DNA from: a bacterium | GTDB lineage: Bacteria; Planctomycetota; Planctomycetia; Pirellulales; Pirellulaceae | Reading direction: 5' to 3' | DNA length: 64,000 nucleotides | Assembly: GCA_030430075.1 (NCBI GenBank) | Contig: JAUIGN010000011.1 | Span: 124,001-188,000 of the forward strand | Part shown: positions 10,582 to 62,870 of the stretch, in pieces | Layout: each line of letters starts with the position of its first letter | Position numbering within the stretch: the stretch's first letter is position 1 | Position numbers and translations under genes: made by a program | Notes under the pieces: model-generated | The model's database searches: none | Seen by the model: only the letters and a program-made list of their open reading frames with translations | What the model was told of the DNA's origin: nothing

Positions 10582-10670
10582 CCATAATTAGGTTGCCTAG
10601 GTTGAACTGTCAAGGGCCGTGCCGGCAGCGGCTGATCAATCGAGGGCTTTGCAGCAGGGGGACTCGCGTC

Positions 10671-13052
10671 GTGAAAGTTGACGGGGGAGTTTTTGTGGGC
10701 GTTTGCCTGTGCCTCCAGTTCGTGGGGTTCGCGGAGGAAGTTGATTTCCGTCGTGATGTGCGGCCGATCCTTGTTCAGAAGTGCTTTTCGTGCCACGGGC
10801 CGGACGAGGAAGAGCGTCAAGCAGACTTGCGACTTGACGTGCAAGCGGGCGTCTTCGGCGATCCTGAGGCGACGACGATTGTGCGGGGGGATCCGGACCA
10901 GAGTGCGCTTTACCAGCGCTTGACGGCGGAAGACGAGGACCTCCGGATGCCGCCCGTCGATTCCGGCAAGACGGTTTCTCAAGAGGAGCGGGACTTGGTG
11001 CGGCGCTGGATCCAGGAGGGTGCCAAGTGGGAGTCCCACTGGTCCCACGCGCCGCCCCGCCGTCATTCCGTTCCAGCGGTTGCGGACTCTGCCTGGCCGG
11101 TGAACTGGATCGACAACTTCGTGTTGTCGCGGCTGGAGGCGCAGGGGCTGGCGCCGGCGCCGGATGCCGATCGGGTGACCTTGATTCGACGGCTCAGTTT
11201 TGATTTGACCGGGCTGCCGCCGACGCCGAGTGAGGTTGAGCAGTTTATCAAGGACGACTCCCCGCGGGCCTACGAGCAACTGGTTGATCGGCTGCTGGCA
11301 TCGGACCGGTACGGCGAGCGGATGGCGATTTACTGGCTGGACCTGGTTCGTTTTGCGGACACGGTCGGCTATCACGGCGACCAGGATCACAACATCTCTC
11401 CGTATCGCGATTATGTGATTGATGCCTTCAACGAAAACCTTCCCTTCGACCAGTTTACGCGGGAGCAACTGGCCGGCGACCTGCTGGCGAACGCGACGGA
11501 GGATCAGAAGATCGCGACGGGCTACAACCGTTTGCTGCAAACGTCGCATGAAGGGGGCGTGCAGGCCAAGGAGTACCTGGCGATCTACGCGGCTGATCGA
11601 GTGCGGAATTTCTCGGCCGTCTGGATGGGCGCGACGATGGGGTGCGCTCAGTGCCACGATCACAAGTACGATCCGTTGTCGATGAAGGACTTTTACTCGC
11701 TGGTCGCCTTTTTCGCCGACATCGACGAAGACCAGCACTTGCGGAAGGCCACCAATGCCTTGCCGACGCAACGGCTGCCGGAGATGAAGGTACTCAGCAA
11801 ACGCCAGCGCCGACGGCTTACGGAAATCGAGGCGCGCCTGGCTGAGCTCGGGGCGACGCTGGAGGAGCCGGAAGCCGAGCAGTCGGATGCCGGGGCGGCC
11901 GTGCAGACGGAGTCCGACGGCTTGCGGGAAGAGGCGCAAGCAATTCGCCAGACCGCCCGCCTGACGATGGTCACGCAAGCCATCGAGCCGCGAACGATCC
12001 GCATCCTGCCTCGCGGCAACTGGCTCGATGACAGCGGTCCCGTGGTCGAGCCGGCGGTGCCGGAGTTTCTGGGGACGCTGCCGGTGGGCGAGTCGCGGTT
12101 GACGCGCCTCGATCTGGCCAATTGGCTGACTCGCCAAGAGGACGGTGTTGGCGGGAACACGGCACGGATTTTTGCCAATCGATTCTGGTACCTGCTCTTC
12201 GGCCGCGGGCTCGTCCCGTCGCTTGACGACTTTGGTGTCCAGAGCGAGCCGCCCTCGCACCCCGCATTGCTCGACCAGTTGGCGATGGAGTTCATCGAGA
12301 GCGGGTGGGACGTCAAGCGGATGATGAAGCGGATCGCCATGAGCCGGACATACCGGCAGGCGTCGACGGTGACGCCGGAACTTGCCAAGCAAGACCCGCA
12401 CAACCGCTGGCTGGCCCGCCAGTCGAGGTTTCGCTTGCCGGCGGAAATGGTCCGCGATAACGCGTTGGCCATCAGTGGACTGCTGGTATTGGACTATGGG
12501 GGAGCGAGCATCAAGCCGTACCAGCCGGCCGGCTATTATCGCCATCTGAATTTTCCCAAGCGGACCTATCAAACGCACACAGACCGCCGCCAATGGCGAC
12601 GCGGGGTCTATATGCACTGGCAACGGCAATTCCTCCACCCGATGCTCAAGTCGCTTGACGCCCCGACACGCGAAGAGTGCACGGCGGAGCGTCCCAGGTC
12701 GAATACGCCCTTGGCCGCGCTGACGTTGTTGAATGATCCGACCTTTGTCGAGGCCGCTCGGGTGTTTGCCGAGCGGATGATGACGGAGGGCGGCGGCGAC
12801 ACATCCTCGCGGATTGATTTTGCGTTTCGGCACGCCGTTTCACGGCCGCCGGATGAGACGGAACGTACGGTGTTGACGGACCTGTTCGAGTCAAGTTTGC
12901 GGGAGTACGAAGCGGCTCCGGAGTCGGCGGCGGCGCTGATTCGCACCGGCCAGGCGCCGCGCCCGGCAGACGGGGAGGCGGCAACGCTGGCGGCCTGGAC
13001 CACGGTCGCTCGCGCGCTGCTCAACCTGAATGAGACCATCACGAGAAACTAG
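10671..13052 (+). CDS. Planctomycete cytochrome-domain protein (PSCyt1-DUF1549-DUF1553)
   Basis: A secreted protein of about 793 residues. GTG 10671 is chosen because a GGGGGA site lies 8 nt upstream and it opens a signal peptide (VFVGVCLCLQFVGFAEE). The PSCyt1 haem motif CFSCH follows within 40 residues of maturity. The DUF1549 domain (WIDNFVLSRLEAQGL, LTGLPPTPSE) contains a second CxxCH (CAQCH), and the C-terminal DUF1553 domain is clear (RIFANRFWYLLFGRGLV, MSRTYRQ). Such proteins are abundant in planctomycetes and are presumed periplasmic c-type haem proteins, often beside sulfatase-like or DUF1501 genes; their reaction is unknown. An upstream in-frame ATG at 10566 would overlap the divergent radical-SAM start and lacks a signal peptide. 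A DUF1501 gene follows. Confidence 0.85.
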   Translation: MKVDGGVFVGVCLCLQFVGFAEEVDFRRDVRPILVQKCFSCHGPDEEERQADLRLDVQAGVFGDPEATTIVRGDPDQSALYQRLTAEDEDLRMPPVDSGKTVSQEERDLVRRWIQEGAKWESHWSHAPPRRHSVPAVADSAWPVNWIDNFVLSRLEAQGLAPAPDADRVTLIRRLSFDLTGLPPTPSEVEQFIKDDSPRAYEQLVDRLLASDRYGERMAIYWLDLVRFADTVGYHGDQDHNISPYRDYVIDAFNENLPFDQFTREQLAGDLLANATEDQKIATGYNRLLQTSHEGGVQAKEYLAIYAADRVRNFSAVWMGATMGCAQCHDHKYDPLSMKDFYSLVAFFADIDEDQHLRKATNALPTQRLPEMKVLSKRQRRRLTEIEARLAELGATLEEPEAEQSDAGAAVQTESDGLREEAQAIRQTARLTMVTQAIEPRTIRILPRGNWLDDSGPVVEPAVPEFLGTLPVGESRLTRLDLANWLTRQEDGVGGNTARIFANRFWYLLFGRGLVPSLDDFGVQSEPPSHPALLDQLAMEFIESGWDVKRMMKRIAMSRTYRQASTVTPELAKQDPHNRWLARQSRFRLPAEMVRDNALAISGLLVLDYGGASIKPYQPAGYYRHLNFPKRTYQTHTDRRQWRRGVYMHWQRQFLHPMLKSLDAPTREECTAERPRSNTPLAALTLLNDPTFVEAARVFAERMMTEGGGDTSSRIDFAFRHAVSRPPDETERTVLTDLFESSLREYEAAPESAAALIRTGQAPRPADGEAATLAAWTTVARALLNLNETITRN

Positions 13053-13371
13053 CCGGGCAGTGCCTCGAACCGATCGCCGGCGAACTCGGCTGAGCCACCA
13101 GCCATTGAACGTTGGCCCGGACGATTCATTAGCCGGTGGGCGTTACCCCGGTTCCGTCGAAGGATGCACAAACCGGACGATAACGCGTTCCAGCTGATAA
13201 GCAGGGCGGATTCGGTAGGTTCACCGTAAATAACAACCGACCCGGTGACGCGTACTGATTCGTTCTCCGTTTGGGACACACCCTGGCTTAGGTAAAAATC
13301 AAGGACATACATTGTCGAGCCAACGATATGGGCCTGCGAAAGGTTGTTGGTCCAGCTTGGTTGGACGATGT
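13053..13371. other. Intergenic region between PSCyt and DUF1501 genes
   Basis: About 320 bases with no supported ORF. It ends in a REP-like hairpin that runs almost to the DUF1501 start. I see no strong terminator. Confidence 0.4.
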
Positions 13372-13410
13372 CAGGCCGCATTGCGTCATGCACAGCATGG
13401 CCTACGGAAA
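13372..13410 (-). repeat. REP-like palindrome, copy 3 (inverted)
   Basis: Read on the minus strand it gives TTCC-GTAG-GCCATGC-TGT-GCATGAC followed by GCAATGCGGCCTGAC. The 3' flank matches copies 1 and 2 (ATGCGG/CCTGAC). It lies just ahead of the DUF1501 start. Confidence 0.75.
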
Positions 13411-13424
13411 GGGCGACGAAAGCG

Positions 13425-14921
13425 ATGAAGGAGCCAATCGATATCTTCACCCGGGTGCCGTCAGGTGCGGGGGAGCAGCAGGCAATCCAGGTGAATCGCC
13501 GGACCTTCCTTGCCCGCTCCGGCGTCGGGCTCGGCTCAACCGCCTTGGCATCGCTGTTGGCGCGGGACGGGAACGCCGAGTTGCCGCGGGCTTCCGCGGC
13601 GGCGGGCGACGCCGTCCAGCATGGCGGGTTGCCGGGCTTCCCCCATTTCGCGCCCCGGGCCAAACGAGTGATCTTCCTCTGCATGGCCGGCGGCCCAACG
13701 CACTTGGAGACGTTCGACTACAAACCGGTGTTGGCGAAAATGGACGGCCAACCCATGCCGGATTCATTCACCAAGGGGCAGCCGATCGCGCAGTTGCAGG
13801 GGCAGGAACTGAAGTGCCTGGGGCCGATGACCAAGTTTCGCAAGTATGGCGAGAACGGACAGGAGATCAGCGACTTTCTGCCCTGGCACAGCAAGCTGGC
13901 GGACGACATCTGCATCATCCGTTCGATGGTCACCGAACAAATCAATCACGACCCGGCCCACACCTTCATGAATACGGGCACGGCGACCAGCGGGCGGCCG
14001 TCGATGGGCGCTTGGATTAACTACGGGCTCGGCAATGCCAGCGAGAACCTGCCTGGTTTCATCGTGATGACCAGCGTCGGTGGACGCAACCCGCAGCCGA
14101 TCGCCTCACGCCAATGGTCTGCCGGTTTCTTGCCCGGCCGTTTTCAGGGGGTCGAATTCAGTTCCAGCGGGGATCCGGTGCACTATGTCCGCAACCCGGC
14201 AGGCGTGTCTCGCGGGCAGCAACGCGAACTGGTGACAGCGATCGAGCGGCTCAATCGGCATCGAAATCAGGACGTCGCGAACCCGGACATTGACACGCGG
14301 ATCGCGTCCTACGAGATGGCATTCCAAATGCAGACCTCGGTGCCGGAACTAATGGATGTTTCCGACGAGCCGGCGGACGTGCTCGAAATGTACGGCGCGC
14401 AGCCGGGCGACGGTTCCTTCGCATCCAACTGCCTCCTGGCCCGACGGCTGGCCGAACGAGACGTGCGGTTCATCCACCTCTACCACCGAGGTTGGGATCA
14501 TCACGGCGGGCTGTTGAAATACATGGATACCTGCTGCGGGTTGACCGACAAACCGACGTGGGCCTTGCTGACCGACCTCAAACAACGGGGCATGCTGGAT
14601 GAGACGCTGGTGATTTGGGGCGGCGAGTTTGGGCGTACTCCCATGTTCCAAGGCAAGGGGGGCGCCGGGCGCGATCACCACATCAAGGGGTTTTCGATGT
14701 GGATGGCCGGCGGCGGGATCAAGGGTGGGATCACGTACGGTGCCACCGACGATCTCGGCTATCACGCCGCCCAAGACGTCGTCCATGTCCGCGACCTGCA
14801 CGCCACCATGTTGCACCTGCTGGGCATCGACCACTCGAAGTTTCACGTCAACTTCCAGGGCCTCGACCTGGGATTGACCGGCGTCTTGCCGGCGCGCGTG
14901 GTCAAACCGATCCTGGCCTAG
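13425..14921 (+). CDS. DUF1501 family Tat-exported protein
   Basis: A 498-residue member of the DUF1501 (alkaline-phosphatase/sulfatase-like fold) family. It starts MKEPIDIFTR, with a twin-arginine signal RRTFLARSGVGLGSTALASLL about 24 residues in. Family landmarks are visible: IFLCMAGGPTHLETFDYKP, the His-rich HIYHRGWDHHGG-like segment (IHLYHRGWDHHGG), WGGEFGRTPM and GRDHH. The likely location is the periplasm after Tat export. DUF1501 genes usually follow PSCyt/DUF1549/DUF1553 genes in planctomycetes, as here, which suggests a joint but uncharacterised function. The longer frame from 13344 runs through the REP-like palindrome and lacks the leader at its N-terminus, so it is rejected. Confidence 0.88.
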   Translation: MKEPIDIFTRVPSGAGEQQAIQVNRRTFLARSGVGLGSTALASLLARDGNAELPRASAAAGDAVQHGGLPGFPHFAPRAKRVIFLCMAGGPTHLETFDYKPVLAKMDGQPMPDSFTKGQPIAQLQGQELKCLGPMTKFRKYGENGQEISDFLPWHSKLADDICIIRSMVTEQINHDPAHTFMNTGTATSGRPSMGAWINYGLGNASENLPGFIVMTSVGGRNPQPIASRQWSAGFLPGRFQGVEFSSSGDPVHYVRNPAGVSRGQQRELVTAIERLNRHRNQDVANPDIDTRIASYEMAFQMQTSVPELMDVSDEPADVLEMYGAQPGDGSFASNCLLARRLAERDVRFIHLYHRGWDHHGGLLKYMDTCCGLTDKPTWALLTDLKQRGMLDETLVIWGGEFGRTPMFQGKGGAGRDHHIKGFSMWMAGGGIKGGITYGATDDLGYHAAQDVVHVRDLHATMLHLLGIDHSKFHVNFQGLDLGLTGVLPARVVKPILA

Positions 14922-43361: not shown

Positions 43362-43430
43362 AACCACGCCGCTCCCGAACCTTGCTGCGGATTGGACACG
43401 GGACGGGAGCTGGGAAAGCTAGGGCGCGAA

Positions 43431-43707
43431 GGGGACATCCAGACTCGGCGCGAAGGGGGCGCGAAGCGCGCGCGAAGGGGACATCCAGACTCCAACGGGG
43501 CGCGAGTCCGCGAAGGGGACATCCAGACTCGGGCGCGAAGGGGACATCCAGACTCGGCGCAAAGGGGACATCCAGACTCCCGCGCATCGGCGCAAAGGGG
43601 ACATCCAGACTCCAACGGGGCGCGAAGGGGGCGCGCGAAGGACGCGAAGGGGACATCCAGACTCCTGGCACGCTGGACGGCATTTCGGGAGCATTATGGG
43701 TGGCCCC
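43431..43707 (+). repeat. GGGGACATCC repeat array, left of the transposase
   Basis: Exact GGGGACATCC decamers start at 43431, 43477, 43515, 43540, 43564, 43597 and 43649, mostly as GCGAAGGGGACATCCAGACT. The last unit runs into a full element (43649-43707) that ends in GGGTGGCCCC, which pairs imperfectly with GGGGACATCC. Spacing is irregular (24-52 bp), unlike CRISPR. An eighth decamer lies at 43858. Translated frames across the array (AKGTSRL repeats) are artefacts. Confidence 0.9.
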
Positions 43708-44108
43708 TTTCGCCGTGGCCCCTTTCGCCGCCCCTTTCGCCGAAAGCACTCCGACGTTGTTGACGGCAGATTTCCATGATGGCGAGCATGGTCTCAACGA
43801 AGCGACTATGAGCGAAGATGGCGTGAGAAGATAGGCACATCCAACATCCGAGAAGATGGGGACATCCAACATCGACGATGTCATCGATCGAAGGAGACAT
43901 TAATATCCATCATGCGTGGGGACGTTCTGCTTGCGCAGTTACGTGTAAGTGCGTGTGCTCGGTATTTTGCTTGTCAATCGCCTTCGCTAGATTGTTGCGA
44001 TAGTCCGGTTACCAGGTGCGTTAGCGAAGCCGTTCGGCCACTTTGGCGGTGCAGATGAACTTCTTCCCGCCTGGGCCTCTAGCGTGTTGCCAGCTAAGGA
44101 GTACCGAA
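43708..44108. other. Gene-free region between left array and transposase gene
   Basis: About 400 bases with no supported ORF. It holds GGGGACATCC at 43858-43867, a degenerate GGCACATCC at 43834-43842, and several CCCCTTTCGCC units at 43703-43741. It presumably contains the transposase promoter. Confidence 0.6.
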
Positions 44109-45227
44109 ATGCCACGCCAGGCACGCAGTGAGTATCTCGACCCGAACACGGTTCAGGTGATCCATGGGGTTCAACGGTGCGTCCGAAGAGCATTCTTGTG
44201 TGGAAGCGACAATGCCTCCGGAAACTCGTTCGAGCACCGTCGCGGCTGGGTCCGCCAACGGTTGGAATTTCTCGCATCAGTATTCGGGATCGACTGCCTG
44301 ACCTATACCGTGTTGTCCAACCATCTGCATCTGATTCTCCGCACTAGGCCCGATGTGGTGGCCACCTGGAGCGACGACGACGTGGCCCGCCGTTGGTTGC
44401 GACTCTTCCCCGTGCGACGACTCGAAGATGGTTCGGCCGCCGAGCCGGCTGGCTCGGAGATCGCGACCGTTACGGGCAACCCAGGGCGACTTGCGGAAGT
44501 GCGGCGGCGGCTGTCAGACGTCAGCTGGTGGATGCGCTGCCTGGCAGAGAACATCGCCCGCAGGGCCAATCGGGAGGACCAGTGCAGCGGCCGATTCTGG
44601 GAGGGCCGATTCAAGGCTCAGTTGCTGCTGGACGAAGCTTCACTGCTGGCCTGTGCCGCGTACGTTGACCTGAATCCCGTTCGCGCGGCGTTGGCCAACT
44701 CGCTAGAGGAGTCCGAGTATACCGGCGCCAAAGACCGGATTGACGACTTGCTTGACCAGCAGCCTCAAGCGTCGGGCACCAAGGACAAAAATGTTCGACA
44801 GCGAAAAGAGTGGCAGGCAACTCGTGCCTGGGAGCGGAGCCGCCGGCCGAGGAAAAGTGGTTGGATGAGTCCGCTGGAGATTCAGGAAACAGCCGGTTCC
44901 CCAGGACCGGACGCCAGCCCATGCGGTAGGCGAGCCAGCTTGAGGGGCTTCATGTCGATGTCGCTGCCGCAGTACCTGGAGCTTCTGGACTGGACCGGGC
45001 GGCAACTCCACTCACGAGGACGAGGCAGTATCCCAGCAGAACTGGCACCAATCCTGGAAAGGCTGGGCCTGGAAGTCGGCGGCTGGTGTGACCTGGTAAA
45101 GAAATTCGGCAAACTCTTCAAGCGGGCGGCCGGCAATGCGGAGCAGCTGGCGACCGAAGCCGCCCGGCGGGGGCAGAGCTACTTGCAGGCACCCGGCGCG
45201 AAGTTACTCGCTGTAACCACAAACTGA
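44109..45227 (+). CDS. REP-associated tyrosine transposase (RAYT, HUH/Y1 family)
   Basis: A 372-residue protein starting MPRQARSEYLDPNTVQ, preceded by AAGGAGTACCGAA. It carries the HUH motif in LSNHLHLIL (His72 and His74) and the catalytic tyrosine in AAYVDLNPVRAAL (Tyr185), the pattern of IS200/IS605-like TnpA relatives called RAYTs. RAYTs cut and join single-stranded DNA at REP hairpins and are usually single-copy and domesticated. The C-terminal half (about 150 residues, basic) is an extension of unknown role seen in planctomycete versions. The gene sits between oppositely oriented GGGGACATCC arrays, its likely substrates. Confidence 0.88.
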   Translation: MPRQARSEYLDPNTVQVIHGVQRCVRRAFLCGSDNASGNSFEHRRGWVRQRLEFLASVFGIDCLTYTVLSNHLHLILRTRPDVVATWSDDDVARRWLRLFPVRRLEDGSAAEPAGSEIATVTGNPGRLAEVRRRLSDVSWWMRCLAENIARRANREDQCSGRFWEGRFKAQLLLDEASLLACAAYVDLNPVRAALANSLEESEYTGAKDRIDDLLDQQPQASGTKDKNVRQRKEWQATRAWERSRRPRKSGWMSPLEIQETAGSPGPDASPCGRRASLRGFMSMSLPQYLELLDWTGRQLHSRGRGSIPAELAPILERLGLEVGGWCDLVKKFGKLFKRAAGNAEQLATEAARRGQSYLQAPGAKLLAVTTN

Positions 45228-45421: not shown

Positions 45422-45612
45422 CGATGTCCCCGTTCGTCGCCCGTCGTTCGTCCCGGACGTTGGATGTCCCCGTTGGCCCCCGTTGGCCCCCGTTGGATGT
45501 CCCCGTCGGTCCTCCCCGTTGGCCCCCGTTGGCCGACGTTGGATGTCCCCGTCGGTCCCCGTCGGTCCTCCCCGTCGGTCCCCCCCATCCCTCACAGACG
45601 TTGGATGTCCCC
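45422..45612 (-). repeat. GGGGACATCC repeat array, right of the transposase (inverted)
   Basis: The reverse complement GGATGTCCCC occurs at 45462, 45495, 45541 and 45603, with a one-base variant at 45422, embedded in GTTGGATGTCCCCGT units and short GTTGGCCCCC blocks. The orientation is opposite to the left array, so the transposase lies between inverted arrays. The remainder of 45228-45767 holds no ORF I can support. Confidence 0.88.
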
Positions 45613-47375: not shown

Positions 47376-47443
47376 CTGGTGAAGTTGTTGTTCTCTATGC
47401 GAGACCGGAGGCAGAAAGCCAAAAGGGACCAAGAAAGCAAGAA

Positions 47444-47600
47444 AGGGACATCCAGAAACGGGAAAACAAGGGAAAGGGGACATCCAGAATCCGGGCACGA
47501 TGGGCGAAAGTCGGTAAGGATTGTGGGTGGCCCGCTTCGGTTCCCTCTTGGGCCTCTGATTTTGGATGTCCCTCTTGGGCCTCTGAAATGACAGAAACGC
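47444..47600. repeat. GGGGACATCC element pair downstream of the sulfatase gene
   Basis: AGGGACATCC (47444), GGGGACATCC (47476), the element end GGGTGGCCCG (47525) and the inverted GGATGTCCCT (47564). The stretch 47476-47534 aligns along its whole length with 43649-43707, so it is the same element, diverged. Confidence 0.8.
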
Positions 47601-47680: not shown

Positions 47681-48613
47681 TTAGTGGCAGGAATCGGCGT
47701 GACGGTTTGACGCCACCGGGGTGGCCGGAGCTATGTCGACGTCGGCGAGACTTCCTGCGTCGTCCTGATAATATTCCGGGTGCGTTTCCGAGAAGGGGAC
47801 TCGGTCGGGGCGTGGGCCTGGCCATTTGCGACGCACGGCTTTCGGTTCGGCAAAGTTCCCATGTCGAAATTGCAGCGTCCAACGGGTCTGATCGCTCTGG
47901 TTTTGTACGCTCCGATGCAATGCGAGCGTCTGCACCACGAGGACCTCTCCAGGATGCACAGAGATAATCCTCTGCGGGAATCGGTCGGGGAACGAGGGGT
48001 CGGCGATCCCCATCATTTGCCCATCCCTTTCCTGCAAGCGCTGTACGCCCGGTTTGTGAGAACCGATCGCGACCGACAAGGCCGCGTTGCCCTCGGGCAA
48101 GTCACGGATCGGCAGCCAATACACGATGGCATCTTCAGAATCCTGAACCCACGGGTAGTCCTGATGCCACGGTAGCAAATGCGATGCTTCGCGCGGCAGA
48201 CTCACATGCATCGATTGTAGATCACTGGCAATTACAGCCTGAGTGTTCATCAGGTGCTCGGACAACGTAGAGAGACGTTCGCAACAGCCAAACTGAAGGA
48301 GCGGCATGGCGAACATCGACGTCATCTGCATCAGACGACGACTGTCTGGATCGGTACGAATCAACTCCAGATAGCCCTTGTCGAATTCGTTGGGCGACCT
48401 GCGATCAACGGCGGGAAGCCCCAACTGACGTCGACGAAGATCAATGATGCGGGCGAAGGCATCGCGAATCGAGTCCAGTTCTGCAGGGGCGAACAGCCCG
48501 CGAACAAGGCAACAACCGTGTTCCAACAAGACGCGACGCGCCTTCCGCCCCGCCTTATCTGAAACTGAGCCATCAAGCGTTACGACGATTTCATCCGAGG
48601 ACTTGGGAAACAT
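47681..48613 (-). CDS. Phytanoyl-CoA dioxygenase (PhyH)-like Fe(II)/2-oxoglutarate oxygenase
   Basis: A 310-residue protein; ATG 48613 (MFPKSSDE) has AAGGAG 7 nt upstream. The facial triad is the HxD in LPWHQDYPW plus the distal His in LALHRSVQNQSDQTRW, and the following Arg fits 2-oxoglutarate binding. It is the last gene of the lasso-peptide cluster, 83 bases after the cyclase stop on the same strand. 2OG oxygenases act as tailoring enzymes in some lasso pathways (Asp hydroxylation in canucin), so hydroxylation of the peptide is a reasonable inference. A primary-metabolic role is the alternative. Confidence 0.82.
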   Translation of the reverse strand: MFPKSSDEIVVTLDGSVSDKAGRKARRVLLEHGCCLVRGLFAPAELDSIRDAFARIIDLRRRQLGLPAVDRRSPNEFDKGYLELIRTDPDSRRLMQMTSMFAMPLLQFGCCERLSTLSEHLMNTQAVIASDLQSMHVSLPREASHLLPWHQDYPWVQDSEDAIVYWLPIRDLPEGNAALSVAIGSHKPGVQRLQERDGQMMGIADPSFPDRFPQRIISVHPGEVLVVQTLALHRSVQNQSDQTRWTLQFRHGNFAEPKAVRRKWPGPRPDRVPFSETHPEYYQDDAGSLADVDIAPATPVASNRHADSCH

Positions 48614-48696
48614 CTTCGAATCTCCTTGATTGACAGAGACTGCGACCGGCCGCAGTTCGTGGCGGGTTGCTCCCCGACGTGACAACGACAATTTCT

Positions 48697-50535
48697 TCAG
48701 GTCGCCGAGGTTGCTTCTTCACTGGCCAACCAACAATCGAGGCACAGCGACAGAATGAACGGCATCAACTGGCGGACGTTTTGGCCGCCCAGCGATGCCA
48801 CTTCGAGTGTGGATGCCAGCTTGTGCGCATCGATGACTCCCAGCTTCTCGAGCGTGGACTCGCTCAGTAGAACCTCAAGTTCCGGCAGATGGCGAGACAA
48901 CCCCTGATAAAAGACCTCGTCAAAATGCCCTTTTGCCCGGCGCCGCCGAATCGATGCCGGCAGTAAGTCGCCCACTGCCAAGGCAAGCAAAGGCTTGTGC
49001 GGCGTCGGCTCGGGGCGAACGCGACTTGCGGTCCCCAGCGCCAAACACTGCACTCGACGATCCTGAAATGGATGCGAATACTGGATTCCATGAGGAATCG
49101 CCACAGACCAACGAACAACTTCGCCAGGCTGGTCAGTCAGAGTGCCTACGCACTGCGAAAGAAATGTCGTCTGGCAATCCGTCTTGGCCTTCCCCGCAGC
49201 GGGTCGGAGTCGATCGGCGAGAACGTGCTGGCGGACAAACTCGCGGGATATCCAAGCGGACTTCTGCGACGCCGCCAGGCCGTCGCGGCCCGCTCGCCTG
49301 TTGCACCAGGTGCTGCCAAGCCAGCTTCGCAGACGCGCCCGAAGCGGATCAAGTCCGAATGGACATAGAACATTCCAGGCGTTGCAGCCGCGAGCCCTCG
49401 CCCACCGTGCGGCCTCTCTCCAGGCCGATCGCCAATGCCCGCCGCTTAGCAAATCGGACAAGTAGTATGGCTTCGCATCGACCAGCTCATCGGCTCCACA
49501 TCCCGTTAAGACGCTTTTCGCTCCCAGATCACGCGCTGCATTGAGAAGGCAGCGATCCATCGACATTCGCCAGAGGGCCGAGTAAGGCTCTTCGTGCGGA
49601 GGGGGATCGAGAAACGCACCAAAGTCGAGTGCCTGATCGCCGTCAAGGAAATGCGAGTTGCATGCTTCAGCAACTGATATCGCAGACTCAATATACGGCC
49701 GTTCCGTAGCAAGTTTGGGAAGCCTGCGATAAACCATCGTGAGTAAATCCAAGGAATGGGCGGCGCTGCGGGATCGCCGGATCTCGGACGCAAGCAGGGC
49801 CACAGACGTTGAATCCATTCCGCCGGAGAAATGTGCTGCACATCGTCCATCCATGCGCTGCTCAATTGCAGCAGCAAGACGCTGCCTGTAGAGAGGAGCA
49901 ATGTCGCCGAGTCGATCCGTACCAGGATCCGCCATCTGATCTAGCCAATTCCAATACCTTCGCGCCTTCATGACGCCTTCGCCGTCAAGTTCAATCACAT
50001 GCGCCGGTTTTACACGTCGAATCTTGTTGTAAACGCAATCTTCACTCAGAACCTCTTGCCTTGGATCTTCGAGAGTGAGGAATTTGGCAAAGTACGCTCG
50101 ATTCAGTTCTACACTGGGCAACATCTGTGTTAGCGCAAAGACGCTGGTACTGACGGCCACATCGTGGGACGCCTTCGTCCAGAATAGCGGGTACCCTCCC
50201 TGAGGATCGCGGCCGGCAATCAACTTCGAATTACGGCGACTCCAGAACGCAACGGAGAAGTCGCCTTCGAGTTGCACCAACGCATCATCGTCCCACTTGC
50301 GAAATGCCTCTAGCGCTAGCGCGGCATCACGAACATTCCCGCCAAGCCCCAGACGGGCTGCAAGTTCTTTTTGATAATGCAATCGTCCGAATAGCGCGAC
50401 GGCGCCGGTCGCGGATTCGTGGAAAGTGAGCAGTCCTGAGCAGTCACCTTTCGGACGATATAGGTGAAAGTCCGCACCCTGCTCCCTGATGACGACAGTA
50501 AAACCACGATTCATCGCGCAAAGACTCCGCTTCAT
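48697..50535 (-). CDS. Lasso-peptide cyclase (asparagine-synthetase-like, LarC/McjC type)
   Basis: About 612 residues. The N-terminal half resembles the glutaminase fold (ALFGRLHYQ, LEGDFSVAFWSRRNSKLIAGRDPQGGYPLFW) but lacks the nucleophilic Cys at position 2, as in lasso cyclases. The synthetase half has the ATP-pyrophosphatase loop AAHFSGGMDSTSVALLA and LTGCGADEL. It activates a side-chain carboxylate of the precursor as an AMP ester and forms the macrolactam. ATG 50535 overlaps the stop of the protease gene (ATGA); ATG 50514 (MNRGFTVV) is a later alternative with a GGAG ahead. The order A-B-C plus the precursor upstream makes the assignment firm in kind, if not in product. Confidence 0.88.
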   Translation of the reverse strand: MKRSLCAMNRGFTVVIREQGADFHLYRPKGDCSGLLTFHESATGAVALFGRLHYQKELAARLGLGGNVRDAALALEAFRKWDDDALVQLEGDFSVAFWSRRNSKLIAGRDPQGGYPLFWTKASHDVAVSTSVFALTQMLPSVELNRAYFAKFLTLEDPRQEVLSEDCVYNKIRRVKPAHVIELDGEGVMKARRYWNWLDQMADPGTDRLGDIAPLYRQRLAAAIEQRMDGRCAAHFSGGMDSTSVALLASEIRRSRSAAHSLDLLTMVYRRLPKLATERPYIESAISVAEACNSHFLDGDQALDFGAFLDPPPHEEPYSALWRMSMDRCLLNAARDLGAKSVLTGCGADELVDAKPYYLSDLLSGGHWRSAWREAARWARARGCNAWNVLCPFGLDPLRARLRSWLGSTWCNRRAGRDGLAASQKSAWISREFVRQHVLADRLRPAAGKAKTDCQTTFLSQCVGTLTDQPGEVVRWSVAIPHGIQYSHPFQDRRVQCLALGTASRVRPEPTPHKPLLALAVGDLLPASIRRRRAKGHFDEVFYQGLSRHLPELEVLLSESTLEKLGVIDAHKLASTLEVASLGGQNVRQLMPFILSLCLDCWLASEEATSAT

Positions 50536-51266
50536 TCGTAAGAGAAAACCGGCCGATACTTTTGACAACGATCTGCGAAGTCCCCAACGACCTGTCCATC
50601 GACCTCGCACCAACAGTGGCTGGCGAAAGGAAAAAAGTCGACACCCACGACAAGACGTGCCGGCACGCCACTTGTCCGCAGCAAAGACCAGCAAGTGAGG
50701 CTCCGTTCCTTGCACTCCACGGGCAGCAGATGCCCAGCGGTGACTTCCGCGACGCAACCGGGAATGGTTGCCGTCTGCCCCTGCTGCGTTGCCGCGCCAT
50801 CAAGAGACCGGTGAGCCATCTTCCAGGTCGCCAGAGTTCTTGGCCAGTTGATCAAGCGTATTGCAACATAGGCACACGCCAGCATCAGCCAGCACTGAAT
50901 CCGCCCCCGCGGAACCAGGCGATGCAACGCCCACACTAGAACCAAGAGCGGACGCGAACACTGCGCGACAGGCAAATGGCCAGGGCCGCCATCTCGAACA
51001 ACCAATTGGGCTCGCGCCAGACCGTTCAGAAATTCACGCATGTCCATTTCCAAGTCCTGCCGATCGTGCCTGAATCGGACGGCCATCCGTGCCGCCGCGT
51101 GTACGATTCCATGTTCCAGCGTGCCTTGCAGCATCGTGGCTGCGGTGGCAGATAGCCCGTAAAAGCGACCATCCAGGTCAAGTAGTCTGCCACTGCCGTC
51201 TTCGAGGATCACCAGTGCAGTGTCCGCCTTGAGCTGAAAGTCAGGACCGGAATTTCGCGTGTTCAT
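50532..51266 (-). CDS. Lasso-peptide maturation protein: fused RRE (B1) and transglutaminase-like protease (B2)
   Basis: A 244-residue protein. Residues about 10-95 form a PqqD-like RiPP recognition element (ALVILEDGSGRLLDLDGRFYGLSATAATML), which binds the leader. Residues about 105-244 form the B2 transglutaminase-like protease, with Cys185 (VECKERSLTCW), His217 (PFASHCWCEVDG) and Asp229 (VVGD) as the triad. In many clusters B1 and B2 are separate genes; here one polypeptide does both. The stop overlaps the cyclase start by 4 nt. The start MNTRNSGPDF lacks an obvious ribosome site. It lies 149 bases after the precursor stop, behind a strong hairpin. Confidence 0.87.
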   Translation of the reverse strand: MNTRNSGPDFQLKADTALVILEDGSGRLLDLDGRFYGLSATAATMLQGTLEHGIVHAAARMAVRFRHDRQDLEMDMREFLNGLARAQLVVRDGGPGHLPVAQCSRPLLVLVWALHRLVPRGRIQCWLMLACAYVAIRLINWPRTLATWKMAHRSLDGAATQQGQTATIPGCVAEVTAGHLLPVECKERSLTCWSLLRTSGVPARLVVGVDFFPFASHCWCEVDGQVVGDFADRCQKYRPVFSYE

Positions 51267-51311
51267 CGATTAGAGATTTCGGAATGTTGAGTGACATCGT
51301 GATTCGGAGTT

Positions 51312-51341
51312 CCAGCCGGCGCCGGCAGTGGCGCCGGCTGG
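51312..51341 (-). other. Strong hairpin between precursor and protease genes
   Basis: CCAGCCGGCGCC and GGCGCCGGCTGG form a perfect 12-bp GC stem with a 6-nt loop. There is no T tract, so it is more likely an attenuator or mRNA 3'-end stabiliser. Such hairpins between the precursor and processing genes of lasso clusters are known and raise precursor levels relative to the enzymes. Confidence 0.75.
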
Positions 51342-51415
51342 CCTCCGCATTTCAGGCTCCGCATATCAATGGGCCGCAAGATTTCGAGTGTCAGGTTTGA
51401 GCCACATTCATGGCA

Positions 51416-51607
51416 CTACGAGCCCCAGACCCACCAACCACCTGTGCCATCAATCAGGTGCCCGGAGCCATCGCGACGCATCAGCTGGGACGCCGTTCCA
51501 AAAGACACGACTCGCGGGGCGCGATAATCCTCCGGCGGATCTACGATCGCAGGTTTGGCAGCTGCGATCCTGTCTTTCCCAGAACGATTGTCAGATTCGA
51601 CATTCAT
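51416..51607 (-). CDS. Lasso-peptide precursor
   Basis: A 63-residue peptide starting MNVESDNRSGK, with AAAGG 8 nt upstream of ATG 51607. The leader holds the lasso recognition motif YxxPxxxxxG (Tyr28, Pro31, Gly37) and TASQLM, close to the SASQLT of microcin J25. The C-terminal end reads GSGHLIDGTGGWWVWGS (residues 47-63). If Gly47 is the first core residue, Asp53 closes a 7-residue ring; starting at Asp46 or Arg45 would give 8 or 9. The residue expected to be Thr at -2 is not Thr in any register, so the cleavage site is uncertain. The tail Trp-Trp-Val-Trp could provide the steric plug. The gene is followed by the hairpin and the B and C genes. Confidence 0.85.
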   Translation of the reverse strand: MNVESDNRSGKDRIAAAKPAIVDPPEDYRAPRVVSFGTASQLMRRDGSGHLIDGTGGWWVWGS

Positions 51608-51784: not shown

Positions 51785-52153
51785 TCACCCCTGTAAATGG
51801 CGCATCACGTTCAGGGCACTCAATCGAGCCTGATCGTGTTTCGGCAAGGTTTTGAAGGTTGCGTGCGTGAGGCCGCCGCCAATTGAACTGGCAGCACTGA
51901 CGGTTGGCAGCGCGGTACTTGCACCAACTGCGTCGAGCGTCGCCGCGTGACATGCTGCTTTTGCCGCGTAGGAAGTGGCAGCGTGGCCCACGGCCGTCCC
52001 GACGAACTTGCATACATCGCGGGTCGCCCGATTCTTGACTCCAGCGGCATTCAATAGGCACTTCGTAGCGGAACGCCCCGCGGCCCCCCCCATCGTCCCA
52101 CTGATCGGCCCAACGACCTCGCCGGCGGCCGTCCCCAAAAAAGGAATCGCCAT
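51785..52153 (-). CDS. Small Gly/Ala-rich hypothetical protein
   Basis: A 122-residue protein from ATG 52153 with a good ribosome site (AAGGAG, 8 nt). It starts MAIPFLGTAAGEVVGPISG and is rich in Gly and Ala with GxxxG-like spacing (GGAAGRSATKCLLNAAG, VGTAVGHAATSYAAKAAC), and has three Cys. It has no signal peptide or recognised domain. It lies 177 bases upstream of the lasso precursor on the same strand, so it may be part of that locus, for example in immunity or as a second peptide; this is speculative. Confidence 0.6.
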   Translation of the reverse strand: MAIPFLGTAAGEVVGPISGTMGGAAGRSATKCLLNAAGVKNRATRDVCKFVGTAVGHAATSYAAKAACHAATLDAVGASTALPTVSAASSIGGGLTHATFKTLPKHDQARLSALNVMRHLQG

Positions 52154-52344: not shown

Positions 52345-52581
52345 TTAACGGAAGCTAAAGGCGCCGCACTGGCCGCAACACCACGAGCTGTATTGAGTCG
52401 TGAGCGACTGCCCCACCGTGCAGGTGCCGCACGTGGTGCATGTAATCGTTCCACACTTCGAACAAGAGTGCGTGCGAACTGCGGGCGGACGAGGGTCGTG
52501 CACCAAATCAGCACCACGTAAGAATGGGCTTTTCTTGCGACAGGTTTGACACCGTTTTCGCTTAGCCATGAGACGAACCAT
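52345..52581 (-). CDS. Small multi-CxxC zinc-ribbon protein
   Basis: A 78-residue protein from ATG 52581 (MVRLMAKRKRC) with GGAGAAG upstream. It carries four CxxC pairs (CQTC, CSKC, CTTC, CGQC), consistent with two zinc ribbons. The basic N-terminus may bind nucleic acid. It lies downstream of the kinase gene and upstream of the Gly/Ala-rich gene on the same strand; no function can be assigned. Confidence 0.6.
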   Translation of the reverse strand: MVRLMAKRKRCQTCRKKSPFLRGADLVHDPRPPAVRTHSCSKCGTITCTTCGTCTVGQSLTTQYSSWCCGQCGAFSFR

Positions 52582-52799
52582 CGGTCTTCTCCACGAATTA
52601 AGACAGTGAGATCGGAATGAAACGCGGCTGTCTGGGCAGTGACGCCCGCATTCCGGCAAGCCGACTTCATGAGGAAAGGCAACAATTGCCGTAGCCACTT
52701 CCGAAGGTGGCGACGTCCGGCGTTCGGTTAATTACCTATACCGGGCTGCGGTCCGGTGTGACAGAAATTCTCAGAGATTCTGCCAGCAACCAACTCAAC

Positions 52800-57830: not shown

Positions 57831-58691
57831 GACGGAATACCTCTGGAATCTTGTATCGGCTGGCTGCATTCAACCGCGGAGATCGAATGGCATACTTACA
57901 TGTATCCCTGAACGTCATCACTGTGACAGCTTTTTTTACCCAGAAACAGCTCGCCTCGAGGCTTTCCGCCACGGATTAGCGCCCCAACACATCGTCGATC
58001 ATCACTACCCGTTCGCTGCATTGCAAGGACCACTGCAACCAACGCCTGCCGGCAACCTAACGCTTTGGCATGGGCTGCACCCCATTCGACAACTCGAACG
58101 AATCGAGTAACGAGAGAACGCGAGGACTATCAAAGGAGGACGAACAGGGGCATCGAGCCACGGTTCTGGCGAAATGTTTCATTCCTGACTACTGTTGACG
58201 ACTACGGTGTAATTGGCGGTGTAATTGGGGCGGCGGTGTAATTGGGGCCACCCAACTTTCACGACGCGCGTTTTTTGAGGGGTTGGTAACGATTTAGATC
58301 GGCGAACTTAGAGCAGGCTGATTTTCGCCCTTGTTGCGGCGCGGAACTTTCTCAATATTGCGTTTCGTTCGTTCCGAACGGGGGGCCGTAGGCCACGCCG
58401 CCGCCGCAGTGACGGACCTTGAGCGTAATCGGCGTGAGATGGCGCACGCGTTCGCGCGTACTTTGCCTTACGTGAAGGCTTCGCGGGCGTGGAAGGTGCC
58501 GTGCAGCCAGCGGCAGCCCCGGCGTTCGCGTTCCGCTTCCATACTCGGCGGGCGTTCCACGCAGCGACGGAACCAGCGCCCAAAACCTGCAACCGCGCGA
58601 AGGGGACATCCAACCGCGCGAAGGGGACATCCAGCTCCTGGCACGCTGGACGGCATTTCGTGAGCATTATGGGTGGCCCCTTTCGCGCCCC
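57831..58691. other. Gene-poor region with transposon debris
   Basis: About 860 bases. It holds three GGTGTAATTGG units at 58206-58245; the last runs into GGGGCCACCC (58244-58253), the reverse complement of the GGGTGGCCCC at 58672. A stretch at 58320-58600 is open in several frames but matches nothing I recognise. GGGGACATCC occurs at 58603 and 58624. The sigma-gene promoter should lie at the left end. Confidence 0.6.
58603..58681 (+). repeat. GGGGACATCC element at the truncated transposase
   Basis: GGGGACATCC at 58603 and 58624. The second begins a full element ending in GGGTGGCCCC at 58672-58681, nearly identical over about 58 bp to the element at 43649-43707. It lies at the breakpoint of the IS1634-type transposase fragment. 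Confidence 0.9.
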
Positions 58692-59724: not shown

Positions 59725-60060
59725 TTAAGTCGGGGCGACTGTCGTATCTTTGAACCGTTTGCCACCCTCCTCGACCGCTTCGTACAAGGCTATCCGGTGC
59801 CGGCGGCCGGTTATCTCCAAACGGCGGCTCAACTTGGCCACCGACGCGTCTGAAAACGACCGCTGTTCAGTTGCGGGATCATCGTCGAGGCGATTTACGG
59901 GGTCACTTTCGGGATCATTGGTGTCATTTGCAGAATCATCAACCGGTTGTGCAGTGTTAGTGTTACCGGCGTTGTTTGCGGTATCATCGATCCGATTTGC
60001 AGGATCATCTACTTTCTGGACGCCGCCAACGTTTTTCGTATGCTGGGATCGCAATGACAT
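59725..60060 (-). CDS. Low-complexity acidic hypothetical protein
   Basis: A possible 111-residue protein divergent from, and overlapping the first bases of, the TOTE-type gene. The middle is an Asp/Asn-rich run of degenerate units (DDPAN, DDTAN, DDSAN); the C-terminal part (LSRRLEITGRRHRIALYEAVEEGGKRF) looks protein-like and ends KDTTVAPT, nearly the same as the end of the small protein at 63815. Whether it is translated is uncertain. The overlap of divergent starts argues for caution. Confidence 0.4.
   Translation of the reverse strand: MSLRSQHTKNVGGVQKVDDPANRIDDTANNAGNTNTAQPVDDSANDTNDPESDPVNRLDDDPATEQRSFSDASVAKLSRRLEITGRRHRIALYEAVEEGGKRFKDTTVAPT
59726..59756 (+). repeat. 31-bp direct repeat, left copy
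   Basis: Matches 63825-63855 at 28 of 31 positions, with shared core GTCGTATC and flanking AGTCGGGGC and TTGAACC. The two copies enclose the TOTE-type gene and the toxin-antitoxin module. It could be an attachment or target-site duplication, or a duplicated gene end. Confidence 0.75.
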
Positions 60061-62870
60061 CGCATTCAAGGGCCGTACATCACAGTTCGCCGCCCAGACA
60101 AAAGATCGCACTCTTTCGCGCGCTCTTTCGAGGGCGAGAGGATGTCTATCCGCGCCGCTTTGAGAGTCGTTCGACCGGAAAGAGCGGTTACTCGCCGGTC
60201 TGCGCGAACGAGTGGGTGACCGGCATTTGCGAAAAGCCGCGAGTCAAATGCGCAACCTGTCACCATCGGCAATTCCTGCCCGTGACCGACGAAGTAATCC
60301 ACCAACATCTCGTGGGGACGGACGAACGGGGCAACGATTTTGTCGCCGGCGTCTATCCGATGCTGCTGGATGAGACATGCTTCTTTTTGGCAATCGATCT
60401 CGACAAGTCCGGCTGGCGGGAAGATGCGGTCGCGGTGCTGGATACGTGTCGTCGGATAAAGGTTCCCGCGGCGCTCGAGCGGTCACGGTCCGGCAACGGT
60501 GGCCACATCTGGGTCTTCTTTGAAACGGCCGTTCCAGCTTCCGTAGCACGGCAACTCGGTTCGCATGTGCTGACGGAGACGATGGAGCGGCGGCCGGATA
60601 TCGGACTCGATTCGTATGATCGCTTCTTCCCAAATCAAGACACGTTGCCGCAGGGCGGATTCGGAAACCTGATTGCCTTGCCGCTGCAGGCGAAACCGCG
60701 CGTAGCCGGCAACAGCGTGTTCATTGATGCATCCTGGGAGCCGTACCAAGATCAATGGGAAGCCCTCTCTTCCATTCAGCGCATGCCGCGTGCAATGGTT
60801 GACGAGATCGTGCGTAACGCCGGACAGACAGGACGCATCATCGGTGTTCGAGTGGCCAGCAGCGACGATGACGTCGAGCCCTGGAAGTTGCCACCGTCAC
60901 GTCGCCGCACTGATCCCGACATCTCCGGAGAGTTGCCGGCGCGACTGGACCTGACGTTGAGCGATCAGGTTTACGTATCAAAGGAGAATGTGCCCCCGGC
61001 GCTGCGCAACCGCTTGATACGGCTGGCGGCATTTCAGAATCCAGAGTTCTACAAAGCCCAGTCAATGCGTCTTTCCACCTGGGGAAAGCCGCGAATCATC
61101 AGTTGCGCCGAGGACCACCCACGGTATCTCGCACTACCGCGGGGATGTTACGAGGACGTCACAACTCTGTTGGGCGATCTGAAGATCGAAGTCACTACGC
61201 ATGACGAACGTGTCAGCGGTGAACCGATCGAAATGTCGTTCCAGGGAGAACTCAGACCTGAACAAAGGACCGCGGTTCGCAAGCTGCTCGAACACGACAA
61301 CGGTGTCCTTGCGGCAACAACGGCGTTCGGCAAGACGGTGGTTGCCGCCTGGATGATCGCTCAGCGCGGTGTCAATACACTGGTCCTTGTGCATCGGCGG
61401 CTGTTACTCGATCAGTGGGTCGAGCGGTTGTCGGAGTTCCTCGGAGTTTCGCCAAAAGAGATTGGCCGGATTGGCGGCGGCCGCAAGAAGCGGATGGGTC
61501 GAGTCGATGTCGCCATCATTCAGAGCCTCGTGCGAAAGGGCACGGTGAAAGACTATGTCGCCGATTACGGTCATGTGATTGTCGACGAATGCCATCACCT
61601 GTCGGCGCTCAGCTTTGAACTTGTTGCGCGACGGGCAAAGGCGAGATATGTTCTGGGGTTATCAGCAACGGTGGCTCGCAAAGACGGGCATCATCCAATC
61701 ATCTTCATGCAGTGTGGGCCGGTCCGTCATTTTGTCGATGCTAAGGCCGAGGCAAACGCCCGCCCGTTTCAGCATTCAGTCATTGTACGGCCGACGGGAT
61801 TTCGCCCCGTGTCCGAAGCCGATCCCGATCCGCGATTGCAGTTTCAGGACCTCTATCGCGAACTGATCGCCGACAGCGATCGCAACCGGACGATCTGCGA
61901 GGACGTTCTTCGGAGCATCCGTGAAGGTCGATCCCCACTTGTACTCACCGAACGCCGAGAGCACCTCGAGTTGCTTGCGGCGATCTTAGCACCAGATGTG
62001 GAGCATGTCGTCGTCTTGCAGGGCGGTACGGGCATTAAGGAGTCCAGGGAAATCGCGGATCGCCTTGCCGCGATCCAGCCTGACCAGCCGCGCGTGTTGC
62101 TGGCGACCGGCCGCTACATCGGCGAGGGCTTCGATGACGCGCGGCTGGATACGCTGCTGCTGACGCTACCCGTTTCGTGGCATGGCACCATCGCCCAGTA
62201 TGTTGGACGACTGCACCGATTGCACGAGGGAAAGACGGAAGTCCGCGTTTACGACTATGCGGATCTGAACGTGCCGATGCTCGCTCGGATGTTCGACCGG
62301 CGATGCCGGGGGTATGAGGCGGGCGGCTACACCGTCCTGTTGCCAGGCAGTGCGGTTCCGGGTTGGCCGGCAGAAGTCCCGTTACCTGTCGATCCGCAAT
62401 GGAAGCACGACTATGCGGCGACCGTGAGACGACTCGTTCAAGACGGAGTCGACGCGCCGTTGGCCAAGCTATTCGTGCATGTCGCTCGAAAGTTCGACTC
62501 CGATGCCGAGGGAGCCCGACGAGCGCGAAGTGCCACCGAGGCGTTCCTCTATCGCCGCCTCGAATCTCTCCCGGAAACCGCGGGCCGATTCGATTTGAAC
62601 CTCGAGTTGCCGATTCCATTTGATGGCTGGGGCAACATGGAAGTTGACCTGCTCGATTCAAGATCCCGCCTTGCCATTGAACTCGACGGCGGCCAGCACC
62701 TCGCCAGTGCCGACGCCTATCGCCGCGATCGCCGAAAGGATGCCCTGCTTCAGGAACACGGTTACTTCGTTTTGCGGTTCCTGGCAGAAGATGTCGGCAA
62801 GCAACTCGACAAAGTGCTGGACGCGATCCTGCGAGTGATCGCAAAGCGTGGCGCCAAACCACCGGATTGA
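60054..62870 (+). CDS. TOTE-type conflict protein: primase (AEP), superfamily 2 helicase and DUF559 nuclease
   Basis: A 938-residue fusion. Residues 1-290 fit the TOTE archaeo-eukaryotic primase domain: FRGREDVYPRRFE, GYSPVCANEW with the Cys cluster KCATC, the metal motif FLAIDLDKSGW and the SGNGGHIWVFF motif. Residues about 400-720 form an SF2 helicase (Walker A-like AATTAFGKTV, DECHH box, LSATVARKDG, QYVGRLHRLHEGK). Residues about 830-930 are a DUF559/Vsr-like nuclease (EVDLLDSRSRLAIELDGGQH, GYFVLRFL). TOTE systems are proposed transposon-linked conflict systems. ATG 60054 with GGGA upstream is the likely start. Confidence 0.9.
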   Translation: MTSHSRAVHHSSPPRQKIALFRALFRGREDVYPRRFESRSTGKSGYSPVCANEWVTGICEKPRVKCATCHHRQFLPVTDEVIHQHLVGTDERGNDFVAGVYPMLLDETCFFLAIDLDKSGWREDAVAVLDTCRRIKVPAALERSRSGNGGHIWVFFETAVPASVARQLGSHVLTETMERRPDIGLDSYDRFFPNQDTLPQGGFGNLIALPLQAKPRVAGNSVFIDASWEPYQDQWEALSSIQRMPRAMVDEIVRNAGQTGRIIGVRVASSDDDVEPWKLPPSRRRTDPDISGELPARLDLTLSDQVYVSKENVPPALRNRLIRLAAFQNPEFYKAQSMRLSTWGKPRIISCAEDHPRYLALPRGCYEDVTTLLGDLKIEVTTHDERVSGEPIEMSFQGELRPEQRTAVRKLLEHDNGVLAATTAFGKTVVAAWMIAQRGVNTLVLVHRRLLLDQWVERLSEFLGVSPKEIGRIGGGRKKRMGRVDVAIIQSLVRKGTVKDYVADYGHVIVDECHHLSALSFELVARRAKARYVLGLSATVARKDGHHPIIFMQCGPVRHFVDAKAEANARPFQHSVIVRPTGFRPVSEADPDPRLQFQDLYRELIADSDRNRTICEDVLRSIREGRSPLVLTERREHLELLAAILAPDVEHVVVLQGGTGIKESREIADRLAAIQPDQPRVLLATGRYIGEGFDDARLDTLLLTLPVSWHGTIAQYVGRLHRLHEGKTEVRVYDYADLNVPMLARMFDRRCRGYEAGGYTVLLPGSAVPGWPAEVPLPVDPQWKHDYAATVRRLVQDGVDAPLAKLFVHVARKFDSDAEGARRARSATEAFLYRRLESLPETAGRFDLNLELPIPFDGWGNMEVDLLDSRSRLAIELDGGQHLASADAYRRDRRKDALLQEHGYFVLRFLAEDVGKQLDKVLDAILRVIAKRGAKPPD

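Follow-up and report, generated by a model that had tools for sequence, protein, structure and literature searches.

A likely lasso-peptide gene cluster of a planctomycete with methionine at the penultimate leader position

Thr at the penultimate leader position, Thr(-2), has been regarded as the key residue recognised when the leader is removed from lasso-peptide precursors. The analysed window, a stretch of 64,000 nucleotides of planctomycete DNA, holds four adjacent genes (A to D) that look like a lasso-peptide cluster and a precursor with Met at this position. The locus raises the question of whether such a cluster makes a lasso peptide and, if it does, where the leader is cut and what the product is. 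The question matters for genome mining, because the tools rely on Thr(-2) and on Gly, Ala, Ser or Cys as first core residue (+1), and a clade without Thr(-2) would be missed or mis-cut under such rules. Thr(-2) was found in all precursors reported before BsfA, which works with Ile(-2); Ile, Val and Ala are known or predicted at this position (PMC10368454). Asn1 works as first residue in metanodin and is reported as a new addition to Gly, Cys, Ser and Ala (PMC12670498). Arg1 is missing from the experimentally observed first residues listed there, and the literature searched, which did not cover most subscription journals, contained no case of Arg1 or of Met or Lys at -2.

The four genes are found in the order A, B, C and D on the minus strand, as had been read from the sequence alone (hereafter the sequence-only reading), and all four frames are open and intact (Table 1). 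The same reading described several ATGA overlaps; there is one, at the B/C junction (50535-50532). The gap between A and B is 149 bp and contains a strong hairpin (region z-score -3.5), present as one copy in the genome, which probably sets the A:B expression ratio or protects the A transcript. C and D are separated by 83 bp, and the likely start codon of D is preceded by an AAGGAG ribosome-binding site. The gene past D is sulfatase-like and convergent. No second copy of the precursor was found in the genome. A Gly/Ala-rich ORF of 122 amino acids lies just upstream of A on the same strand (51785-52153); because it has no match in Pfam or NCBIfam and no relative in 147 genomes, it was left out of the cluster. 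Another small ORF on the minus strand (52345-52698) has many CxxC pairs, zinc-ribbon-like, and no Pfam match.

Table 1. Location of the cluster features in the window
Feature	Position	Strand	Properties
A, lasso precursor	51416..51607	minus	63 aa; ATG start behind AAAGG
A-B hairpin, GC-rich	51306..51346	minus	main stem 12 bp
B, fused leader-binding protein and leader peptidase	50532..51266	minus	244 aa; PqqD + Transglut_core3
C, macrolactam cyclase	48697..50535	minus	Asn_synthase; asparagine-synthase fold
D, PhyH-type Fe(II)/2-oxoglutarate oxygenase	47681..48613	minus	310 aa from the likely start ATG 48613

Protein B has both parts expected of the leader-processing proteins in a lasso cluster, a PqqD-like leader-binding domain (RRE, about residues 10-91) and a transglutaminase-like B2 peptidase with Cys and His (about residues 120-244). 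It matches Pfam PqqD with 24 bits, just above the cut-off of 23.4, and the NCBIfam model lasso_biosyn_B2 (NF033537) with 60 bits at a cut-off of 33. With phmmer the leader-binding half weakly matched TbiB1 and TfuB1, both with solved structures. The invariant protease residues Cys185, His217 and Trp219 are retained. In the structure model, with pLDDT above 90 across most of the protease half, three strands and helices are followed by a helix starting at Cys185 and a strand carrying His217; a Foldseek search with this model gave weak matches to cysteine proteases only (best E 7e-3).

Protein C is an asparagine-synthase-like cyclase with an intact ATP motif (SGGxDS, read SGGMDS). Its best NCBIfam match is the albusnodin/ikarugamycin macrolactam cyclase model NF033561, with 188 bits, under the cut-off of 300, which places C outside that family; unlike the albusnodin/ikarugamycin type, the window cluster also has no acetyltransferase. 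C keeps 32 of 48 near-invariant columns and departs at 16, and the substitution R521A alters the otherwise conserved LR after a catalytic-type Lys. Two phylogenetic trees group C among cyclases adjoining lasso B2 genes, with the caveat that in the second tree the window's own asparagine synthases fall inside as well. The position of C in the first tree was rejected as long-branch joining and replaced by that in the second, built with relatives and a mixture model.

Of 392 genomes sampled from the phylum, 30 have a lasso B2 protein above the family cut-off. The comparison loci comprised the regions around these B2 genes and 80 loci from many phyla, nearly all with B2; an alignment-based scan contributed relatives at 24-28% identity only. 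Precursor candidates were gathered on the leader pattern alone, with Thr not required. Of the 60 distinct candidates, 52 have Thr at exactly Tyr+15. The other eight consist of four that resemble chance ORFs (L137, L146 and two in L150), two in L066 with Ala and two in L107 (Bacillota) with a different motif. In all 52 Thr(-2) precursors Tyr(-17) lies at the same distance from the cut. Judged by the first Asp or Glu, the ring has 9 residues in 26 of them, 8 in 18 and 7 in 8. The first core residue, some cases of which are perhaps mis-registered, is Gly in 23, Ala, Lys and Gln in 6 each and Ser in 4, with others found singly and Arg in none. In two planctomycete lasso clusters a PRMT-like methyltransferase directly follows the precursor (L050, 6673-7854 minus; L055, 2657-3769 plus), and L066 (863-2563 minus) has tandem small ORFs with a leader-like YxxPxLxxRERLAKVAE beside a B2-like gene.

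Because the spacing from Tyr to the cut is invariant, a fixed-register profile is a fairer test of A than a gapped leader HMM, which ranked A second only (6.5 bits) and was dropped. The profile was made from the 52 foreign precursors, similarity-weighted, from Tyr(-17) to core residue 13. Every register site in any of the six frames of the window was scored, provided that 10-40 residues followed the cut. A, which has the YxxP(x)[LV]-type leader expected of a precursor beside B and C, came first among 29,266 sites with 16.7 bits, compared with 4.6 for the runner-up. The true precursors scored 18.0-58.6 bits when left out one at a time, so that A lies below the lowest of them; about 3 bits each are lost at Met(-2), Arg(+1) and Asp(+2). 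Judged by this score, A is a real lasso precursor but an outlier. No NCBIfam or Pfam model matches A. The two leader motifs named in the sequence-only reading, YxxP...G and TASQLM, are both present, but TASQLM is no standard motif: at the same register other precursors have LT-x where A has LM-R. The assignment to a planctomycete lasso cluster itself stands, with B and C matching lasso profiles, C placed among B2-linked cyclases and A as the top leader site.

The first search, a scan of genome contigs with C alone, gave no close relatives. A search with C of 398 genomes in the class gave two genomes with cyclases of 38-40% identity, L193 (G641:C47) and L194 (G683:C546). Both loci have A, B and C in this order, the precursor being directly upstream of a fused B that is 42% identical in L193 and 33% in L194. 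The cyclases of the window and of both loci group as one clade (support 100/100). Retention of the precursor wherever B and C are, set beforehand as a test, is seen in both related B-C pairs, in the same place and with the same YxxP leader register. The fixed-register profile ranks the precursor first in the L193, L194 and L040 loci, although in L193 with only -0.8 bits. L193 reads YRSPRLVAGAKAVDVIL cut GGSYGAYEDSYSGYKWNR, with Ile(-2), Gly1 and Glu8, and L194 reads YQPPELHEVGTLAKLKR cut VGFNFRDGIRYQNNPY, with Lys(-2), Val1 and Asp7. The residues at -2 are Met, Ile and Lys in the three members and Thr in nearly all other precursors, and the window cluster belongs to a small planctomycete clade that lost Thr(-2). 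The two relatives differ from the window in that their cores are unrelated to that of A and PhyH is absent; L193 in addition has a protein after C that from its sequence gives the impression of an ABC membrane domain. L040, the precursor of which has Val(-2), is sister to the clade (99/93; the long branch makes this unsure). Searches of 45 genomes from the relatives' family and of 317 from the window's order gave no further members, and the same-genus genome G001 gave no match to B. In one genome of the relatives' family, G032 (L198), the lasso cluster is of the ordinary kind: its precursor has Thr(-2), and B1 and B2 are separate proteins.

Alternatively, the cluster could be decaying and make no lasso, with relaxed selection as the source of the unusual residues in A and C, which would agree with the long cyclase branch and the 16 changed columns. 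All four frames are open, however, with good ribosome-binding sites and intact ATP and protease catalytic residues, and the odd features of C and B are common to two intact relatives at 38-40% identity and are therefore old and kept. Decay is considered quite improbable.

The most unusual traits, which the sequence-only reading had missed, are the lack of Thr(-2), Arg(+1) and a Lys beside the protease nucleophile; the first and the last are common to the two relatives. Directly after the catalytic Cys, 89 of 94 other B2 proteins have Leu and none has Lys, whereas all three proteases of the clade have C-K-E-R at the nucleophile (Lys186 in B). The catalytic His is followed by Ala in 92 of the 94; a Cys in this position is found in the window B (Cys218), in L193 and elsewhere only in L066, the leaders of which also lack Thr(-2). 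Because papain-like folds normally read P2 by residues close to the active site, a changed P2 pocket is plausible, and since all three members lack Thr(-2) and have Lys after the protease Cys, the protease of the clade probably has an altered P2 preference. The link between Lys186 and the loss of Thr(-2) is a correlation among few members, and Lys186 is not put forward as the sole cause because of two counter-examples: the usual Cys-Leu goes with Val(-2) in L040, and Cys-Trp goes with Thr(-2) in L134. As protease and substrate have changed together, residue swaps could test directly what reads -2, and the clade would offer natural peptidases that cut leaders at other residues. The Bsf cluster of Bradymonas sediminis (PMC10368454) is similar in its lasso A, B and C and in having a residue other than Thr at -2, but differs in having separate B1 and B2, a kinase rather than an oxygenase, Ile rather than Met, and Gly1 and Asp8.

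In the fixed register the leader of A comprises residues 1-44, with Met43 at -2, and the predicted core residues 45-63 (51475-51419), RDGSGHLIDGTGGWWVWGS. The acceptor, for which Asp or Glu is expected at core 7-9, would be Asp53 (core Asp9), closing a predicted ring of core residues 1-9 and leaving a tail of 10 residues that ends in Ser63. The ungapped register with the L055 precursor (GGGSIPHIDGNSGMTMPTK) also gives Asp at core 9 and the common motif D-G-x-[SG]-G, with which the second half of A matches cores from other clades. The same enzymes might cut at another site. A cut after Asp46 would give the core GSGHLIDGTGGWWVWGS with ring Gly1-Asp7, and one after Arg45 the core DGSGHLID... with ring Asp1-Asp8; alternatively, a later peptidase might trim Arg45/Asp46. 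The Arg-Arg-Asp stretch is odd as a core start, Gly is the commonest first residue (23/52) and rings of 7 and 8 occur in the set, but this reading, which we regard as unlikely, would break the single spacing shared by 52 of 52 Thr(-2) precursors, and the fixed register also yields Gly1 and Glu8 in L193. A cut after Ala39 would restore a canonical Thr (Thr38 at -2) and begin the core, SQLMRRDGSGHLIDGTGGWWVWGS with ring Ser1-Asp7, with a known first residue. It would, however, move Tyr from -17 to -12, as seen in no other precursor, and put the common D-G-x-G-G motif outside the ring, and both L193 and L194 lack Thr there too; such a cut is hardly to be expected.

The preferred reading, with the cut after Arg44, is that of a functional but divergent lasso-peptide cluster, and the mechanism as a whole is considered likely. 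The N-terminal RRE of B would bind the leader via Y(-17), P(-14), V(-12) and G(-8), and D would probably hydroxylate one residue of the core while the precursor is still linear. Leader removal by the transglutaminase-like half of B would follow, after Arg44 and with Met in place of Thr at -2, and C would then, in an ATP-dependent step, link the liberated amino group of Arg1 to the Asp9 side chain. The product would be a nine-residue ring around the threaded tail GTGGWWVWGS, with Trp residues as plugs, exported by a transporter presumably encoded elsewhere. That the fused peptidase of a planctomycete clade switched from Thr to Met, Ile or Lys at -2, marked by the Lys, and that the member in the window makes a PhyH-oxygenated Arg1 macrolactam, is put forward tentatively, at somewhat under an even chance. 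If true, a ring that begins with Arg and a lasso modified by PhyH would each widen the known lasso chemistry. Metanodin (PMC12670498) likewise has a first ring residue outside Gly, Ala, Ser and Cys, but combines Asn1 with the canonical Thr(-2), compared with Arg1 and Met(-2) here.

Protein D matches PhyH with 65 bits and keeps HxD...H and Arg (H179, D181, H262 and R273), with which the catalytic residues are in place in all three enzymes, as originally read. The model is a double-stranded helix, the closest solved folds being PtlH, GriE and KanJ, natural-product oxygenases/hydroxylases; among sequences of solved structures there was a weak match to PtlH. Asp181 of the HxD motif argues for hydroxylation over halogenation. 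Possible target residues are all present in the core of A (Asp, Trp, Leu, Ile, His and Val). D could also be an unrelated neighbour with no action on the peptide. A PhyH oxygenase is found only in the window cluster among the lasso loci examined, with none in L193, L194 or about 110 others, and PhyH as a general lasso partner was rejected. Since both relatives lack it, D may be a recent or unrelated neighbour. No PhyH relative above E 1e-20 was found in 196 relatives, and the closest homologue in the phylum sample (L187, 30% identity) has no lasso genes nearby and lies among sugar- or cell-surface-looking genes. Against this, D is on the same strand, 83 bp past C, with its own strong ribosome-binding site and a convergent gene downstream, its nearest solved folds are natural-product hydroxylases, and the L040 lasso locus holds a 2OG oxygenase of another family; an unrelated D is rather doubtful.

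No literature joining 'lasso peptide' and 'PhyH' was found. The canucin A cluster (PMC9266682, PMC8498205) resembles that of the window in combining a lasso with an Fe/2OG oxygenase, CanE, which hydroxylates linear CanA with the assistance of B1 (PMC9266682). Because of this precedent D is placed before cyclisation, on linear A, in the proposed order. D has the HxD...H and Arg of a canucin-type oxygenase, but CanE acts on a C-terminal Asp and the C-terminus of A is Ser, and B1 and B2 are separate in canucin. The L040 locus (9574-13469 plus) has, besides the Val(-2)-type precursor, an HPr-kinase-like gene, a nucleotidyltransferase, a PF13640 2OG-Fe(II) oxygenase and a methyltransferase.

The absence of an adjacent exporter or isopeptidase gene, which had been called unusual, was confirmed, but it is not unusual. 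A rough motif regex (Walker-A/signature) applied to the 48 comparison loci with long flanks detected an ABC ATPase no more than 8 kb from B2 in 6 of them (2 of 16 planctomycete loci), leaving 42 without one, and the isopeptidase gene occurs chiefly in alpha-proteobacteria (PMC13352647).

A short element, GGGACATCC/GGATGTCCC, occurs elsewhere in the window in 17 copies grouped at 43400-43860, 45460-45610, 47440-47570 (just beyond D) and 58600-58630. The groups flank a REP-associated tyrosine transposase gene (44043-45227 plus), and the element looks like a REP/RAYT-type repeat family. The window also contains a TOTE conflict-system protein (59976-62870 plus), in which an archaeo-eukaryotic primase, a helicase and a DUF559 nuclease are joined in one frame of 964 amino acids.
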